Shown in pieces: positions 27,395 through 36,323 of a stretch of 64,000 bases of DNA; positions within the stretch are counted from its first letter, which is position 1; the number at the start of each line of letters is the position of its first letter. Source of the stretch: Bryobacter aggregatus MPL3 (GTDB lineage: Bacteria > Acidobacteriota > Terriglobia > Bryobacterales > Bryobacteraceae); NCBI RefSeq assembly GCF_000702445.1, contig NZ_JNIF01000003.1, positions 2,356,001-2,420,000 of the forward strand, given 5' to 3'. The position numbers were made by a program, and so were the translations under genes. The notes beneath the pieces are model-generated. The model was not told the DNA's origin. It did not search any database and worked only from the letters and a program-made list of their open reading frames with translations.

Positions 27395-27414
27395 AGTACT
27401 AAATACCTAAGCGG
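27395..27414 (+). promoter_or_regulatory. Conserved 20-base element, copy 1 (upstream of the PEP-CTERM gene)
   Basis: AGTAC-N5-ACCTAAGCGG, starting 95 bases before the ATG at 27490. A second copy, 18/20 identical, lies upstream of the acyltransferase-like gene at 29966-29985. A possible -10 box (TAAGAT, 27434-27439) follows 20 bases later, which would place the element at about the position of an activator site. Nothing of the sigma-54 type is present. Confidence 0.6.
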
Positions 27415-27489
27415 AAAACCTCAGACCTGCTGATAAGATTAGAGCCTGAGCGAGGGTTGTTTCCCTTCACTCATTCGGAGGACCCAAAC

Positions 27490-28236
27490 ATGTTTCAATC
27501 TCAATTTTCCCTGACCGGAATCAAGACCACTCTTGCTCTCGGTATGATCGGCTTCTTTTTAGCCTTGGCGCCAGCATCGGCGACTGTAGTGACTGGCCAC
27601 CTTGGCATCTCAGCAGGCCCCGGAGGCGGCGTGACTGTAGATACTGGCACCATCATCTTTGGCAACAATCTTTTCTCGGTCGGTGGGAGCCCCCCGAATA
27701 CCGGTTATTTCACGAACCCCTTTGATGCCGGCGGCGCAAATCCCTATCAGGGCACAATTTTGAATTTGGACAATGGTGTCCAGATTACCGGCTCCACCTT
27801 CTCTCTCCCCAACTTCCTGACCTTTTATAACGATGTCACGACCTTCGAGCTTACCTATATTGCTCCTGGTGTGAATGGCAGTGGCGATTGCGGTCTCCCT
27901 GCGGCTGCCGGTCAGAAATGCACTCCGATCCTCCCCATGGGCCTTTCGCCGTTCAACTTGGCGAATACTCCGGATGGTGGCTCAACCGCTTCCTTTAGCG
28001 TTTCTGGTTTAGTTCACAATGGTTCGGATGTTTCTGCGTTCACTGGTACTTTCAGCAATACCTTCAACAACATGACCTTCCAGCAGGTTCTGCTCGTACT
28101 GGCGAATGAGGGTCAGGTATCCTCTACCTGGTCTGCAACCTTCGATGTGTACGCCGTTCCCGAACCCGCCTCCATGGGTCTGGTCGGTTTGACCTTGGCA
28201 GGCATTGCTACCTACCTGCGCCGCCGGAACGCCTAG
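27490..28236 (+). CDS. PEP-CTERM sorting domain surface protein
   Basis: The 248-residue protein has an N-terminal signal peptide (TLALGMIGFFLALAPASATV) and ends with a PEP-CTERM exosortase signal: VPEPASMGLVGLTLAG from about residue 223, then a span and RRR. The middle is a beta-rich glycine/asparagine/threonine-rich region with two cysteines (GDCGLP, QKCTP). The ATG at 27490 is preceded by GGAGG. Such proteins are cut and anchored by exosortase (EpsH family) in the inner membrane; no exosortase gene is in the window. It heads a small accessory module and shares a 20-base upstream element with the acyltransferase-like gene. Confidence 0.88.
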   Translation: MFQSQFSLTGIKTTLALGMIGFFLALAPASATVVTGHLGISAGPGGGVTVDTGTIIFGNNLFSVGGSPPNTGYFTNPFDAGGANPYQGTILNLDNGVQITGSTFSLPNFLTFYNDVTTFELTYIAPGVNGSGDCGLPAAAGQKCTPILPMGLSPFNLANTPDGGSTASFSVSGLVHNGSDVSAFTGTFSNTFNNMTFQQVLLVLANEGQVSSTWSATFDVYAVPEPASMGLVGLTLAGIATYLRRRNA

Positions 28237-28259
28237 CCTGTTATCTCCAATCTCGCGAT

Positions 28260-28283
28260 ACGGCCCGGGCTTGCCCGGGCCGT
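28260..28283 (+). terminator. Hairpin between PEP-CTERM and oxidase genes
   Basis: Perfect 10-base arms ACGGCCCGGG (28260-28269) and CCCGGGCCGT (28274-28283) with a CTTG loop lie 23 bases after the PEP-CTERM stop. No long T run follows, but the stem is very strong. It would separate the structural gene from the oxidase gene and could leave limited read-through. Confidence 0.6.
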
Positions 28284-28293
28284 CGTGATTCTT

Positions 28294-29883
28294 ATGCACC
28301 AATCTCCACCTAAGTCGCTGGATCTCAAGCCCTTTGAGCTTGTTCTTGGTGCGGCAAACATCATCTCTGCTGCATCTCTCTCTACTGCCACATTTCCGAC
28401 TGCAGTTCAAATTCCTGCTGTTCTCCGTCCGGGTTCCGTGAGCGAAGTCCAAGAATGCCTTCGCCTGGCCGCGAGCCATGACATCCGTCTCCATCCCATT
28501 AGCACTGGAATGAACTGGGGCTACGGCTCAGCTGTTCCCTATGCAGACTCCACGCTGCTTCTGGATCTCGGCCGGATGAACCGGATTCTCGATTACGACG
28601 ACCGCCTCGGTTATGTCGTGATTGAGCCTGGGGTCACGCAGCAACAGCTCTACGACTTCCTGCAAGAGAAGGGAGGACGCTACTGGATGGATGCCACCGG
28701 CTCCTCTCCTTCCTGCAGCATCATCGGAAACACCTTGGAGCGTGGCTTTGGTCACACTCCGCTGAGCGACCACTTTGCCAATTCCTGTTCCTATCAAGTA
28801 GTACTCGCGACCGGCGAAGTGATTGAGACCGGCCTTGGTGCCCTCACCGGCTCGGCCTCTCGCAACGTATTCCGCTGGGGCGTTGGCCCCTTCATCGATG
28901 GGCTCTTTTCGCAGTCCCGATTGGGCGTAGTCACGCGAATGACCATCTGGCTCATGCCCGCACCGGAAGCTTTTCTCCCTTTCTTCTTCCGCTGCGGGGC
29001 CCCGGACGCTCTCCCTCCCCTGGTGGAGACCTTGCGGGACCTGCGCATGAACGGCATCCTCCAAAGTGCTGTGCACATCGTGAATGACTATCGGGTTCTT
29101 GCCGGAATCCAGCAGTATCCCTGGCAGGAAACACATGGCGAAACGCCCCTGGGGCCATTAGTACTTGCAGTACTTCGGAAGCGGGACGGCTTCGGTGCTT
29201 GGAACGGTTCGGGTGCGCTTTATGGACCGAAGAAGATGGTGCGTACCATGCAAAAATTACTCAGTCGAACTCTGCGCCCTAAGGTCGACTCCTTAAATTT
29301 TGCGAGCGAAAGACTCCTTTCATTTGCGAAAAGTCACTCTGCTATTTTGAGTCCTTTTGCCGGAATGAACTTGGATAAAACGCTCGGACTCATCGCGCCA
29401 TCGATTGATCTTCTTCGTGGCCGACCTTCAAACCATGCTCTTCGAAGTATCTATTGGCGCAAAAAAAGACCGATTCCTGGATTGCCGGACCCCAATTCCG
29501 ACAGATGCGGGCTTCTTTGGTCTGCGCCCGTTTGTTCTGCGGACGGCGAATCGGCAGCTAAACTCGACCAGATTGTACGTGACACTTTGCTTCCCGGCGG
29601 GTTCGAGCCCTTTGTTTCCTTCACTTTGGCGACTCCTCGAGCCTTGATCTGCGTCGTCTCGATCATCTATGATCGGGATATCATTGGCGAAGACGACCGG
29701 GCCATGACCGTGAATCGAACTTTGAACGAGCGTCTGCTGGCAGCTGGCTTTCCTCCCTACCGCCTTGGAGTACAATCCATGGAATTTTGGGACAAACACC
29801 AGAAGCTAAAAGCGCTCTCAAACCTGGAAACTAGCTTGGATCCTAAGGTATTGCTCTCACCGGGGCACTACGGACTATCTTAG
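28294..29883 (+). CDS. FAD-linked oxidase of the vanillyl-alcohol oxidase type
   Basis: The 529-residue protein has an FAD-binding PCMH-type domain: VQIPAVLRPGSVSEVQECLR, HPISTGMNWGYGSAVPYAD with the ISTG-N-GYG flavin-binding motif, VVIEPGVTQQQLYDFLQEKG, and DATGSSPSCSIIGNTLERG. The C-terminal half resembles the substrate-cap domain of VAO/4-cresol dehydrogenase. Such enzymes oxidise phenolic or alcohol side chains. The ATG at 28294 is preferred over GTG 28285, which abuts the hairpin. No strong SD is seen. It lies between the PEP-CTERM and acyltransferase-like genes. Substrate is unknown. Confidence 0.82.
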   Translation: MHQSPPKSLDLKPFELVLGAANIISAASLSTATFPTAVQIPAVLRPGSVSEVQECLRLAASHDIRLHPISTGMNWGYGSAVPYADSTLLLDLGRMNRILDYDDRLGYVVIEPGVTQQQLYDFLQEKGGRYWMDATGSSPSCSIIGNTLERGFGHTPLSDHFANSCSYQVVLATGEVIETGLGALTGSASRNVFRWGVGPFIDGLFSQSRLGVVTRMTIWLMPAPEAFLPFFFRCGAPDALPPLVETLRDLRMNGILQSAVHIVNDYRVLAGIQQYPWQETHGETPLGPLVLAVLRKRDGFGAWNGSGALYGPKKMVRTMQKLLSRTLRPKVDSLNFASERLLSFAKSHSAILSPFAGMNLDKTLGLIAPSIDLLRGRPSNHALRSIYWRKKRPIPGLPDPNSDRCGLLWSAPVCSADGESAAKLDQIVRDTLLPGGFEPFVSFTLATPRALICVVSIIYDRDIIGEDDRAMTVNRTLNERLLAAGFPPYRLGVQSMEFWDKHQKLKALSNLETSLDPKVLLSPGHYGLS

Positions 29884-29965
29884 TTAAGTCTCTTTTAGGC
29901 ACTAGTCCTTTCGATTCCCTAATGGCGCTGTCCCGTCTCGACGATCAGTGGTATGCTAATCGAAC

Positions 29966-29985
29966 AGTACGAAAAACCTAAGCGG
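29966..29985 (+). promoter_or_regulatory. Conserved 20-base element, copy 2 (upstream of the acyltransferase-like gene)
   Basis: AGTAC-N5-ACCTAAGCGG, starting 93 bases before the ATG at 30059; 18 of 20 bases match copy 1 at 27395-27414, with identical spacing between the two conserved blocks. The 175-base gap around it contains no other recognisable feature. Confidence 0.6.
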
Positions 29986-30058
29986 TACCAGTACTCTTTA
30001 GCGGCTGTTCAATTCTTGTCCGAGTGTCCTCCAACTCTCGGAAAGGGAGCTTAAGAGA

Positions 30059-30919
30059 ATGTCTTCATATCCTTGCGGTCTTCTTGCACCGTCTCGAGGA
30101 CCAGGTCTTCGGCCTGTGCTTCTGGCGCCGTCTCCTCGTGCGGCCTCACGGCACTTCGATCAGGCCTCGAACTCTTCGTCAGCGCATCGCCATCTTTTGA
30201 TGGAAGTGCAACGTTTCCGAGGGGCTCACTATCTTGCCGACGGTGCGCTGCAGGCTTGTGAACTCACCTCCGATGGCCGCCACATCCAGGCAGTCGATCC
30301 AGCGAGTTGGCATTTCCTGGTGCTCGATGAAGAGGAGCGCATTATGAGTTGCGCTCGTTATTACGAGAATCCGGAACCTTCCTTTGAAGGAACGGCTGCT
30401 GCTCAATCGGCCTTGGCTCGCAATCCCCTTTGGCGGGCCCCGCTGCGCAGTGCCATCCACAGTGCCATCGAATCTGCCCGGTCGCGCGGAATGCGTTTTG
30501 CCGAACTTGGAGGTTGGTGTGTTTCCAGCTCTTGTCGAAATTCCACGCAGGCCTTGCGTACCGTTCTCTCGATGTACGCACTTGGAGAAATCCTTGGTGG
30601 CACAGTCGGCCTGAGCACGGCGACGAAACGTCATTCCTCGTCAACTATCTTGCAACGGCTTGGGGGATCGGTCCTCGAAGAGTCCGGCCGTCCGTTGCCC
30701 TCCTATATCGATCCGAAGTATCGCTGTGAGATGGAACTCCTGCAATTTGATACCTCACGTCCGGCGACTCGCTATGTGGACGCCATTGCGTCCTTGGGAA
30801 AAGAGCTACGCAGCCGGGTGGAAGTGATTTCCGCAGGTGAGGTCTCGTTTACGAATTCGATCCTGGCGCTGTCCACCGCAATCAACGCACACGAACCCAA
30901 AGTGGCTACTGTTGCTTAG
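30059..30919 (+). CDS. GNAT-fold acyltransferase-like protein (autoinducer-synthase-like)
   Basis: The 286-residue protein looks like a GNAT-fold enzyme of the N-acyl amino acid synthase / LuxI-like group: EVQRFRGAHYLADGALQACE with DGRHIQAVDPASWHFLVLDE, then CARYYENPEPSFEG, and ARSRGMRFAELGGWCVSSSC. The FRG/YLADGA opening, the SWHFLVLDE strand and the CARYY segment sit where acyl-homoserine-lactone synthases carry their conserved residues, but a full match is not visible. It might be the exosortase-associated acyltransferase known near PEP-CTERM genes. The first about 45 residues are low-complexity; ATG 30200 is a possible start. RBS AAGGGAG precedes 30059. Identity beyond GNAT is inference. 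Confidence 0.5.
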   Translation: MSSYPCGLLAPSRGPGLRPVLLAPSPRAASRHFDQASNSSSAHRHLLMEVQRFRGAHYLADGALQACELTSDGRHIQAVDPASWHFLVLDEEERIMSCARYYENPEPSFEGTAAAQSALARNPLWRAPLRSAIHSAIESARSRGMRFAELGGWCVSSSCRNSTQALRTVLSMYALGEILGGTVGLSTATKRHSSSTILQRLGGSVLEESGRPLPSYIDPKYRCEMELLQFDTSRPATRYVDAIASLGKELRSRVEVISAGEVSFTNSILALSTAINAHEPKVATVA

Positions 30920-34113: not shown

Positions 34114-34767
34114 ATGTCTTCGCATCGCATCTTCCTTTGTGAAGCACAACCCGTTGTTGTTGAGGGGCTCGCTAGGATCTTAGCCGAGACTCCTGATTTG
34201 CAGCTGATTGGGGCTGCGTCCACCCCGCGCGATGCAATCGCCAAGGTGTCTGAACTCCAGCCGGACATCGTCATGATCGATCAGTCTTCCGGACTGCGTC
34301 CCGTCTTTTCCTTCCTCACGGAAATGAAGATTGCCAGCCCGTCTTCTCGCACAGTGCTTTGGGTCCTGGAACTGGCAGAGATTGAGTGCTTTCGCGCCTT
34401 GCAGCTAGGCGCACGCGGCATTCTGCGCCGAACTCTTCCTATTGTCACCTTGCTCGACTGCCTTCGTTCGGTCGGGGCAGGCAATCTCTGGCTTGAGAAT
34501 TCAATTAGCGATCAGGTGGTTGGTTTCCTCAACCGTAAGAACACGACCCGTCTGACGCCCCGCGAGCGGGAGATTGTCCGCGCCGTCTGCCGCGGCATGA
34601 AGAACAAGGAAGTTGCCGATCTACTGCAGATCACTGCGGGTACGGTGAAGGTGCACCTGATGCACATCTTTGAAAAGACGGGCGTCAAGGATCGCTTTGA
34701 ACTCGCGGCCCAGGGGCCTAAGCTTCTCGGTCTGGACCAGGACGAACGCATCTCGGCCAGCTCATGA
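34114..34767 (+). CDS. NarL/LuxR-type response regulator at the head of the Tad operon
   Basis: The 217-residue protein has a receiver-like domain with a candidate phosphoacceptor aspartate in DIVMIDQSS (about residue 54) and a LuxR-type helix-turn-helix (RLTPREREIVRAVCRGMKNK, then EVADLLQITAGTVKVHL). The conserved receiver lysine is replaced by arginine at ILRRTLP, and the usual acidic pair near the N-terminus is reduced to CEAQ, so phosphorylation may be altered. No sensor kinase is adjacent. Its stop overlaps the next ATG as ATGA, so it is co-expressed with the Tad genes and probably regulates them. Confidence 0.85.
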   Translation: MSSHRIFLCEAQPVVVEGLARILAETPDLQLIGAASTPRDAIAKVSELQPDIVMIDQSSGLRPVFSFLTEMKIASPSSRTVLWVLELAEIECFRALQLGARGILRRTLPIVTLLDCLRSVGAGNLWLENSISDQVVGFLNRKNTTRLTPREREIVRAVCRGMKNKEVADLLQITAGTVKVHLMHIFEKTGVKDRFELAAQGPKLLGLDQDERISASS

Positions 34768-36323
34768 TGAAGAAACATTGGTTCCTTCCCGGTTTCGTGG
34801 ATCTGATCTTTGCCGCACTCATCGCCTGGCTCTTCCTCTTGTCGTCCAAAGGCTGGGGCTTACTGCTCAGCGATGGGGATACCGGCTGGCATATCCGCAC
34901 CGGCGAATGGATTCTAAAGAACCATCGAGTTCCTTTCGAAGACCTGTTTTCCTATACCCGCCCTGGCGCGGAATGGTTCGCCTGGGAATGGGGCGCAGAT
35001 GTTTTGTTTGCGCTGCTGCACGGCTTGGGTGGCCTACCGCTGCTCGTCTTTGTCTGTGGTTTCGTCCTGGTGGCCACCAGCATTGTGGCCTTGCGCTGGA
35101 TGATTTGGCGCGGCTCGAGTGTGCTGGTCGCCTTCCCCCTGATGATGCTCGCCGTGGGCGGGTCCACCATGCACTATCTGGCGCGGCCGCATGTCTTTAC
35201 CCTGTTCCTGCTGGTGAGTTCACTGTGGTTGCTTGATGCAGAGCGGCGCCGGCCCTCGCCACGCATCTGGCTGCTCGTGCCACTCACCGTACTGTGGACC
35301 AATCTCCATGGGGGATGGCCGGCGCTTTTTGTTTTCCTTGGCATTCAGATTGTGGTGCATCTGTTTTACCGGGATCCCCTGTGGCGCAAGGAACTTCTCG
35401 TGACGATGGTCTGTGCGGTGGCTACTCTCTGCAATCCCTACGGTTGGCATCTCCACCAGCACATCCTCGGCTATCTCCAGAGCAGCTGGATCCGGGATGC
35501 GGTTGACGAGTTCCAAAGTCCAAAATTCCGGGCAGAGAATCTGCTGCAGTTTGAAGTGCTGTTGCTGCTCGGCATTGCGACCGCCTGGGGCCGGGCCTTC
35601 CGCTGCTCCCGCGGACTCATTGAAGCGGCGGGCGTCTGGCTTTGGGCCCATCTGGCGCTCGGCGCCGTGCGCCATGCTCCGATTTTTATCCTGGCGGCTT
35701 GCCCCGTGATCTCCTCGGAACTCACGTGCTTGCTCGAGTCTGTCTGGGCTCCGGCGAAGCGCTCCTCGACGCTTGGGATTTTTCGCGATCTCGATGCCGA
35801 TCTCCGCCCCAAGTTCGCGTGGACTTCCATCTGGGCGTTCCTGCTGCCGCTCCTGCTGTTTTTCCTGAGCCCGCAATCCCACCCCAGTGACTTTCCGGAA
35901 AAGCTGTTCCCGGTGGTGGCCGCCAACACCCTGGGCGCGAAACTCCAGGGACCGCGCGTCTTCACCAGTGACCAGTGGGGCGATTACCTGCTCTACCGCT
36001 TCTGGCCATCGACACGGGTCTTCATGGATGGCCGCAGCGACTTCTTTGGGCCCGATCTGGGCCGGCAATACCTTGCGATCGTCAACGGCGCGCCGGATTG
36101 GCGGCAGCAACTTGATGCGCATCGGGTGACGCTGGTGCTGTTGCCGGCCGGTAGCGATCTCGGAGGCCTCTTACAACGCGATCCGGAGTGGCAAACGATT
36201 CATTCTGATGGAGTTAGCGTTGCATTTGAGCGAAAACCCACAAACGCGGCCAAGCTTTTTTCCCCGCTCGGACTAATGAAAGGCTCCCCCCCGTCCGAAG
36301 GAATAGTGGAGACCCGCCAATGA
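34764..36323 (+). CDS. GT-C-like polytopic membrane protein in the Tad operon
   Basis: The 519-residue protein has about ten membrane spans and a soluble C-terminal segment. Near the start it reads LLSDGDTGWHIRTGEWILKN then HRVPFEDLFSYTRPGAEWFA, an acidic loop after the first span that resembles the catalytic loops of GT-C glycosyltransferases (DGDxxWH). A late segment has TSDQWGDYLLYRFWPSTRV and MDGRSDFFG. The family is widespread in Acidobacteria as a hypothetical protein. It is coupled by ATGA to both neighbours, the response regulator and the prepilin peptidase, so it may glycosylate pilin or surface components. Function is inference. Confidence 0.6.
   Translation: MMKKHWFLPGFVDLIFAALIAWLFLLSSKGWGLLLSDGDTGWHIRTGEWILKNHRVPFEDLFSYTRPGAEWFAWEWGADVLFALLHGLGGLPLLVFVCGFVLVATSIVALRWMIWRGSSVLVAFPLMMLAVGGSTMHYLARPHVFTLFLLVSSLWLLDAERRRPSPRIWLLVPLTVLWTNLHGGWPALFVFLGIQIVVHLFYRDPLWRKELLVTMVCAVATLCNPYGWHLHQHILGYLQSSWIRDAVDEFQSPKFRAENLLQFEVLLLLGIATAWGRAFRCSRGLIEAAGVWLWAHLALGAVRHAPIFILAACPVISSELTCLLESVWAPAKRSSTLGIFRDLDADLRPKFAWTSIWAFLLPLLLFFLSPQSHPSDFPEKLFPVVAANTLGAKLQGPRVFTSDQWGDYLLYRFWPSTRVFMDGRSDFFGPDLGRQYLAIVNGAPDWRQQLDAHRVTLVLLPAGSDLGGLLQRDPEWQTIHSDGVSVAFERKPTNAAKLFSPLGLMKGSPPSEGIVETRQ

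Follow-up and report, generated by a model that had tools for sequence, protein, structure and literature searches.

The closest known systems to the locus described here are the gene clusters for the stieleriacines, the thalassotalic acids and the kyonggic acids (NasY together with ThiF and nitroreductase proteins; TyzB/TyzC-like proteins). Besides its synthases, the stieleriacine cluster has genes for a desaturase, a PEP-CTERM protein and a proposed oxidoreductase (PMC7293339); the presence of both PEP-CTERM and fatty acid desaturase genes in the cluster of Stieleria maiorica (PMC7293339; PMC12479983) is a likeness to the genes that we discuss below. In 2011, N-acyl amino acid synthase genes were reported to be linked with the PEP-CTERM/exosortase system (Craig et al., as cited in PMC7293339), and the authors of the latter paper state that the functional connection of synthase and PEP-CTERM protein calls for more study. 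These PEP-CTERM-linked synthases share the GNAT superfamily fold and the connection to a PEP-CTERM gene with the acyltransferase of our locus (abbreviated as ACT), which differs from them by scores below the FeeM and TIGR03694 cut-offs, an invariant GGW and an oxidase partner. In the known clusters, desaturation is ascribed to a nitroreductase-family enzyme and a ThiF protein, whereas here a VAO/PCMH-type flavoenzyme recurs next to ACT.

We analysed a 64,000-nucleotide stretch of DNA from Bryobacter aggregatus MPL3 (the window), in which an ORF listing recovered three genes, and a pattern match the two copies of a 20-base element, as an earlier note on this DNA had described them (Table 1). 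With a probability of roughly 55%, we read the locus as a small biosynthetic module in which ACT and the flavoenzyme work on one and the same phenol amide, with a PEP-CTERM protein as their partner. The product would probably be an oxidised amide of a fatty acid with tyrosine, or with a similar phenol, that is linked to a surface protein. So compact a module, with three genes that include a specific oxidase, offers testable chemistry for the link of synthase and PEP-CTERM protein in little-studied soil bacteria. The start codons adopted in Table 1 lie within slightly longer frames for the PEP-CTERM gene (from TTG 27457) and the flavoenzyme gene (from GTG 28285).

Table 1. Features of the three-gene module; positions are those of the window.
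Feature	Position	Strand	Remarks
Element copy 1	27395..27414	+	exact match to AGTAC-N5-ACCTAAGCGG; first base 95 bases 5' of the PEP-CTERM ATG
PEP-CTERM protein, 248 aa	27490..28236	+	PF07589 26.5 bits; in relatives, too, the family is found next to ACT
G+C-rich hairpin, 10 pairs	28260..28283	+	between PEP-CTERM and flavoenzyme genes (gap of 57 bases)
VAO/PCMH-type 4-phenol-oxidising flavoenzyme, 529 aa	28294..29883	+	PF01565, fold, triad; FAD predicted to be non-covalent
Element copy 2	29966..29985	+	exact match; first base 93 bases 5' of the acyltransferase ATG
GNAT-fold acyltransferase (ACT), AHL-synthase / N-acyl amino acid synthase superfamily, 286 aa	30059..30919	+	model, Foldseek, weak family matches

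The three genes form a real module, as their linkage recurs in relatives. The ACT family is present in 47 of 200 genomes of the order, and 36 of the 37 genomes with an orthologue of the flavoenzyme (326 bits or more) also hold ACT (Fisher p 9e-29); in 35 of these 36, both genes lie no more than 10 kb apart on one contig. Among 40 fetched loci, the flavoenzyme is found in 32, the PEP-CTERM family in 29 and at least one of the two partners in 36, leaving four with neither. ACT and the flavoenzyme gene follow each other on one strand with a gap of -100 to 300 bases in 22 of the 40 loci (start codons chosen by script). The distances of the two proteins correlate across 29 loci (Mantel rho 0.40, 0 of 5000 permutations), for which shared species history alone could suffice. 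In one metagenome-assembled genome (L068), ACT and the flavoenzyme occupy a single open frame, with AGAGG and then an in-frame ATG at the point where the two join; this frame may yield two products or may stem from an assembly error.

These data bear on the alternative that the flavoenzyme and ACT have separate substrates, the former acting on lignin-type phenols and the latter acylating something else, so that they merely share a neighbourhood. Characterised vanillyl alcohol oxidases have indeed been proposed to serve in lignin degradation (PMC12909556), and a close flavoenzyme orthologue is missing from 11 of the 47 genomes with ACT. Against such independence speak the near-complete co-occurrence, the adjacency, the correlated distances and the one shared open frame, as well as the fact that, apart from the PEP-CTERM family, the clustering of neighbours brought out no family shared by more than 10 of 41 stretches. 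We consider separate substrates unlikely.

The flavoenzyme is a VAO/PCMH-type 4-phenol oxidase or dehydrogenase. Besides PF01565 (97.8 bits), its profile matches include nsVAO (9ffk), p-cresol methylhydroxylase (PCMH; 1dii), EUGO and VAO, to which it is alike in its whole-length fold, in 26-30% identity upon structural alignment and in a phenolate triad. Its structural model (pLDDT 80) superimposes on 9ffk with Z 41.3 and an rmsd of 2.2 over 486 aligned residues, and 4-phenol oxidases make up all of the 34 best structural matches (Z 41.3 to 37.3). The triad Y77/Y489/R490 is invariant in 29 of 29 relatives and aligns with Y95, Y473 and R474 of PCMH; in VAO, Y108/Y503/R504 form the phenolate pocket (PMC12909556). 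In the published mechanism, hydride transfer leads to a quinone methide (PMC7617285). What sets the flavoenzyme apart from nsVAO, PCMH, EUGO and VAO is its linkage to an acyltransferase. At the site of the VAO catalytic acid D170 (A154 in PCMH), the flavoenzyme differs in having Gly136, again in all 29 relatives, which makes any electron acceptor and reaction outcome assigned to it tentative. A further difference concerns the N5 site (residue 137), which is Ser in 15 and Ala in 14 of the relatives; the Asp/Glu plus Leu pair of the oxidases at N5 is absent from all 29, so that the enzyme may be either an oxidase or a dehydrogenase. An assignment of D159 as the counterpart of VAO Asp170 was dropped, as Table 1 of PMC7617285 places Gly136 there.

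The FAD cofactor is predicted from the alignment to be bound non-covalently. At positions 397-400, the 29 relatives lack the conserved Tyr/His for a covalent linkage, and Leu407 (28 of 29) stands at the inferred place of nsVAO L418, the His-linkage site. A likeness to nsVAO emerges here, an enzyme that is likewise devoid of covalent FAD (PMC7617285), so that the subgroup does not demand such a linkage.

For ACT, a Foldseek comparison of the model (pLDDT 92) agrees with the LuxI/FeeM-type GNAT fold that the earlier note had assigned. The first nine rows of the PDB search are AHL synthases or FeeM, with E 5.5e-8 for BjaI and E 3.7e-6 (TMt 0.60) for FeeM (2g0b). A second structural aligner, VIA, gave Z 15.3 against FeeM (rmsd 3.0, 175 aligned residues) and does not single out a class, because a simple GNAT protein scores as high (Z 15.5). 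The proposed placement with FeeM, LuxI and TIGR03694 held for the superfamily and failed for membership in TIGR03694, since the curated cut-offs were not reached. The protein itself has no match to TIGR03694 at E<=1 (cut-off 111.95 bits), its own genome has none at E<=0.001, and 8 of 45 ACT family members match weakly (best 0.0015). Its score against the FeeM model PF21926 is 13 bits (E 0.091), below the gathering score of 27, with matches in 18 of the 45 members (best 5.3e-4), and it lacks a curated-level match to AHL-synthase models of the LuxI type. Profile homology to true TIGR03694 members is indicated by an hhalign comparison with a small template set of four proteins that exceed the cut-off (probability 88.2, E 2.9e-6, 197 columns). 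Against a second acidobacterial acyltransferase family, the probability was 20.9. We discarded a PDB sequence search with the ACT profile, the rows of which were mostly MHC proteins and hence chance matches (LasI E 1.2).

In ACT, E-x-G-G-W stands where the four TIGR03694 members carry E-x-S-R, a correspondence that was placed by motif and that the hhalign alignment does not reproduce; at this motif-equivalent site, the Glu is present in 43 and GGW in all 45 family members. We take the E-x-S-R motif to be E101/R104 in LuxI. The handling of the substrate by ACT may differ from that of the E-x-S-R enzymes, judging by this apparent exchange.

Could the module serve in signalling? ACT would then be an AHL-synthase-like autoinducer synthase, the product of which is tailored or inactivated by the flavoenzyme and read by a LuxR-type regulator (34114-34767) that binds the 20-base element. 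AHL synthases do top the Foldseek rows (BjaI, LasI, MesI and RpaI, the last with a p-coumaroyl adduct), 13 of the 45 ACT members weakly match the TraI AHL synthase model (best 6.8e-4), and the regulator, 3.2 kb downstream, has a GerE domain (54.6 bits). However, this regulator is receiver-like (PF00072 22.6 bits, under the cut-off of 30.2; NarL model 101 bits), has no match to the autoinducer-binding domain, and its family occurs in just 8 of 41 stretches, the window counted. ACT also differs from the AHL synthases in its scores against the curated models, in the GGW that seems to replace SR after the conserved Glu, and in its linkage to a phenol oxidase; a para-phenol oxidase is unsuited to the AHL ring unless the acyl group is phenolic. 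We regard a signalling role as distinctly improbable.

The first gene encodes a genuine PEP-CTERM protein by two measures, a PF07589 score above the cut-off of 20.7 bits and an exosortase in the genome. Its signal peptide was judged by eye, and its family has this single match in its own genome. The one exosortase gene found (C3:1281094; PF09721, 241.9 bits) is located about 1.1 Mb from the module, and the genome search with PF09721 detected none nearby.

Taken as a biosynthetic module, the locus suggests the following pathway. Putatively, ACT would attach a fatty acyl group to the amino nitrogen of an aromatic amino acid, or of an aromatic amine, that has a free para-phenol, with tyrosine as the likeliest candidate, a substrate that no computed result names. 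The flavoenzyme would hold the phenol as phenolate and abstract a benzylic hydride, and the resulting para-quinone methide would lead to an alpha,beta-dehydro, a beta-hydroxy or a decarboxylated enamide N-acyl product. The PEP-CTERM protein would be a co-made surface or matrix partner, as has been reported for other N-acyl amino acid synthase genes. An oxidase that acts on an acyl amino acid conjugate, as the earlier note had supposed in proposing a small surface-polymer or signalling regulon, is our best reading as well, and with the module it is the part of that proposal that stands; a regulon marked by the element is not (see below). If our reading is true, lipid amides would join the substrates of the 4-phenol oxidases, fungal members of which are tied to lignin breakdown.

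In our best reading, this route is unlike the known one via ThiF and nitroreductase. Among the eight neighbour families that recur in at least four loci, three of them named by eye, neither ThiF nor nitroreductase was recognised. More tentatively, as a conjecture that we would sooner expect to fail than to hold, we propose a previously undescribed two-enzyme route in which ACT and a VAO/PCMH flavoenzyme make oxidised lipids resembling N-acyl-tyrosine, coupled to a PEP-CTERM surface protein dedicated to them. Some species would add a desaturase and a glycosyltransferase and obtain glycolipids; a fatty-acid desaturase is encoded in 6 and an MGT-like glycosyltransferase in 10 of the 41 stretches. 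Our literature search did not find vanillyl alcohol oxidase and N-acyl tyrosine together. In these searches, the combination was seen only in Acidobacteriota, and a contig scan with one C-terminal peptide pattern returned at least 48 loci, all labelled Acidobacteria or subgroups thereof.

The module seems to be split into two transcription units, PEP-CTERM/flavoenzyme and ACT, each of which would be headed by the same 20-base element. Both copies match the 15 fixed bases without mismatch and are identical in 18 of 20 positions. With up to three mismatches, the window contains five matches, of which two are exact and the others have 2-3 mismatches, compared with a mean of 0.44 and a maximum of 2 in shuffled sequence. 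When two 200-base stretches were compared, a best common 20-mer with 18/20 identity came up once in 2000 order-1 Markov resamplings, and among 2959 random window pairs, with the real copies possibly among them, 2 reached this level. Chance is an unlikely source of such a pair before two promoters of one module, with the proviso that the test is post hoc.

The element is real and seems to be private to this one locus. The 5.7 Mb genome has two exact matches, one with 1 mismatch and five with 2; weaker matches are meaningless, because at up to three mismatches the reversed control pattern yields more (107+117) than the element itself (30+32). We reject the notion of a PEP-CTERM regulon marked by the element, which the earlier note had advanced, naming a lack of further copies near PEP-CTERM genes as its refutation: the single further near-copy precedes a TonB-receptor-like gene, and in the upstream regions scored for 30 of the 37 loci above the PEP-CTERM cut-off, the 15/15 at 27490 contrasts with at most 11/15 at the other 29. 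Five of these 29 reach 11/15, compared with 48 of 594 random window stretches at 11 or above (the two copies excluded; p 0.08), which leaves room for a slight excess. A search with the core TNNNNACCTAAGCNG gave three matches, one of them the present locus; the second lies upstream of a PEP-CTERM gene (C3:1185606, 9/10 of the core) and the third on C4, on the opposite strand inside an apparent enolase gene (judged by eye). We treat these two as chance, because the control gave 7+4.

That the element itself has no function, being a repeat that arose by chance or has decayed, comes somewhat short of an even bet. It would account for its rarity in the genome and before other PEP-CTERM genes, and the upstream regions of relatives (44 ACT, 20 PEP-CTERM) resemble random DNA, scoring 12 and 10 of 15 at best, without enrichment at offsets 80-119; a score of 10 is reached by 9 ACT regions (6.1 expected) and 7 PEP-CTERM regions (3.0 expected), with one at 12. 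In six relatives of one genus (g8), footprinting made no common element apparent by eye, and footprinting at close range is impossible, since of the 8 same-genus genomes searched no other one has the acyltransferase. Yet the 18/20 identity, the matching offsets ahead of both presumed transcription units and the two null models argue for function, and a private binding site is plausible.

No sigma-70-like promoter is listed close to either copy, and the leaders of both units have no better RNA structure than shuffled sequences. Within the first unit, the RNA of positions 28237-28300 folds with -28.3 kcal/mol (z -4.43; 0 of 200 shuffles equally stable), and the hairpin in the gap between the two genes is possibly an attenuator or an mRNA-stabilising stem. 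This hairpin is also listed as terminator-like, a type of site of which the region has 4, compared with 4.1 in shuffles.

The three genes that the earlier note had read as a module, and both copies of the 20-base element before two of them, lie where it had placed them, and linkage in related genomes now supports the module beyond anything its reader could have known. With the window's acyltransferase as query, 200 genomes of the order were searched and 47 gave a match; none of seven further genomes of the genus did. Besides the window's own, 46 genomes were thus positive, and in 40 loci fetched from 39 of them the flavoenzyme was present in 32, the PEP-CTERM family in 29 and at least one of them in 36, counts that are lower bounds because several contigs end close by. 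Neither was found in four loci (L080, L085, L086, L091); in L097 and L099 the nearest flavoenzyme gene is on the opposite strand, that of L097 being distant (34% identity). An oxidase orthologue (326 bits or more) occurs in 37 genomes, 36 of which also carry the acyltransferase (Fisher p 9e-29), no more than 10 kb away in 35 of these 36, the exception being genome G083. In G151, a nearby oxidase piece of 190 bits is cut by a contig end, and in G107, where the oxidase and a PEP gene are present, no acyltransferase match was found. Of 25 PEP-family matches scoring at least 36 bits, 18 have an acyltransferase match no farther than 10 kb away; the window's PEP protein found no other match in its own genome. 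In a MAG sequence (L068, genome G176), acyltransferase and flavoenzyme share a single open frame of 880 codons (855 aa translated), from which two products are possible since the junction carries an ATG after AGAGG. Two acyltransferase copies were seen inside L073, L079, L087 and L088.

Features of the locus and of fetched stretches (L) or contigs (C); plain coordinates are window positions
Feature	Position	Strand	Remark
Element, copy 1	27395-27414		starts 95 bases 5' of PEP-CTERM start codon
PEP-CTERM gene	27490-28236	+	
Hairpin	28260-28283		very stable, G+C-rich; in 57-base gap between PEP-CTERM and flavoenzyme genes
Flavoenzyme gene	28294-29883	+	
Element, copy 2	29966-29985		starts 93 bases 5' of GNAT start codon
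Acyltransferase gene	30059-30919	+	GNAT fold
NarL/LuxR-type response regulator	34114-34767		closest paralogue in genome C4:239758-240447
519-aa protein	34764-36323		follows regulator; no Pfam or NCBIfam match
One-mismatch element	L003 1501-1520		between PAS/kinase-like and TonB-receptor-like genes (named by eye); begins 205 bases 5' of the latter's ATG
Exosortase gene	L189 5389-6958		the one found; overlaps EpsI-like gene, no acyltransferase seen beside it (both by eye)
Recurrent ~260-290 aa protein	L070 6070-6879; L087 5470-6261; L093 11811-12677; L099 13920-14738		near module

For the window's acyltransferase, curated profile models stayed below their cut-offs, and by Foldseek the predicted fold is closest to AHL synthases and FeeM. 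PF13444 reached 16.1 bits (cut-off 22.4), FeeM 13 (27), and no NCBIfam model matched; among 45 family members, matches at E<=1 were to Acetyltransf_5 (19), FeeM (18), TraI-type AHL synthase (13), TIGR03694 (8) and Autoind_synth (7), all weak, with best E values of 5e-4 to 0.07. The first nine Foldseek rows for its model (pLDDT 92) include BjaI, LasI, MesI, FeeM and RpaI, other GNATs starting at rank 10; VIA gave Z 16.2 for BjaI, with FeeM (15.3) and a plain GNAT (15.5) tied. Profile comparison of the family with four true TIGR03694 members gave a probability of 88, and with a second acidobacterial acyltransferase family 21. R54, D80, R100 and GGW at 151-153 are invariant (45/45), and E149 is kept in 43. 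The E, S and R of E-x-S-R are invariant in the four TIGR03694 members, so that the present family differs at that site, the E-x-S-R/GGW correspondence being our own motif reading.

All structural rows 1-34 for the flavoenzyme are of the 4-phenol oxidase subgroup of VAO/PCMH (Z 41.3 to 37.3), while pinoresinol hydroxylase (Z 29.8) ties with D-lactate dehydrogenase (29.6). The PDB profile search returned nsVAO (9ffk, 375 bits), p-cresol methylhydroxylase (370), Marinicaulis VAD (~352), pinoresinol hydroxylase (297), EUGO (~295) and VAO (276-281). The phenolate triad, described as the phenolate pocket in PMC12909556, is invariant in 29/29 relatives. By Table 1 of PMC7617285, the FAD linkage residues are apparently absent, as in nsVAO; at the N5 sites given there, the acidic partner is replaced by Gly and the other residue is Ser or Ala. 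From triad and site residues, the enzyme is expected to take a para-substituted phenol and convert it to a quinone methide, oxygen or another acceptor both being possible.

Characterised enzymes of the acyltransferase's superfamily produce N-acyl amides, and its commonest partner enzyme belongs to a subgroup that acts on para-substituted phenols. The two would probably be reconciled by an intermediate resembling N-acyl-tyrosine. In published N-acyl dehydrotyrosine clusters (PMC12479983), the synthase is accompanied by a ThiF protein and a desaturase of the nitroreductase family, whereas oxidation here would fall to another enzyme class, a VAO/PCMH-type flavoenzyme; one such cluster contains a PEP-CTERM gene (PMC7293339, accessible text). 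Our literature search, mainly of open-access papers, found no paper joining vanillyl alcohol oxidase with N-acyl tyrosine.

The two element copies share 18 of 20 bases, a match reached between 200-base stretches in 1/2000 and 2/2959 pairs under two nulls; the pair is therefore probably not due to chance, although the regions compared were picked after it had been seen. The element stands before both presumed transcription units, PEP-CTERM-flavoenzyme and acyltransferase, which we infer to be separate, and the response regulator is a candidate reader. The regulon inferred in the earlier note found no support. In the 5.75 Mb genome the pattern occurs twice without mismatch, once with a single mismatch, before a TonB-receptor-like gene, and five times with two; at <=3 mismatches a reversed control outnumbers the pattern (107+117 against 30+32 matches). 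The genome has 37 PEP-CTERM matches above cut-off; among 30 loci scored, the upstream of the window's PEP-CTERM gene has 15/15 fixed bases. None of the remaining 29 exceeds 11, a score reached by five, against 48/594 random window stretches with at least 11 (p 0.08). When the same scoring was applied to relatives, before 44 acyltransferase genes and 20 PEP genes, 12 was reached once and the rest stayed at 10 or below, scores of 10 being slightly commoner than in random stretches, with no enrichment at offsets 80-119. The element is thus at most a private site of the window's locus.

When script-predicted proteins of 41 stretches were clustered, the acyltransferase/flavoenzyme and PEP families alone recurred in most. 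An MGT-like glycosyltransferase occurs in 10 (three scanned: PF00201 above, TIGR01426 below cut-off) and a fatty-acid desaturase in six (two scanned: PF00487), in several stretches immediately 3' of the flavoenzyme gene; window 16001-44000 has no member of either family. Extended clusters with a desaturase and MGT-like glycosyltransferases near the gene pair were seen in L073, L081, L083, L088, L090 and L094. The recurrent ~260-290 aa protein, with no Pfam or NCBIfam match in two members scanned, looks by eye like a methyltransferase.
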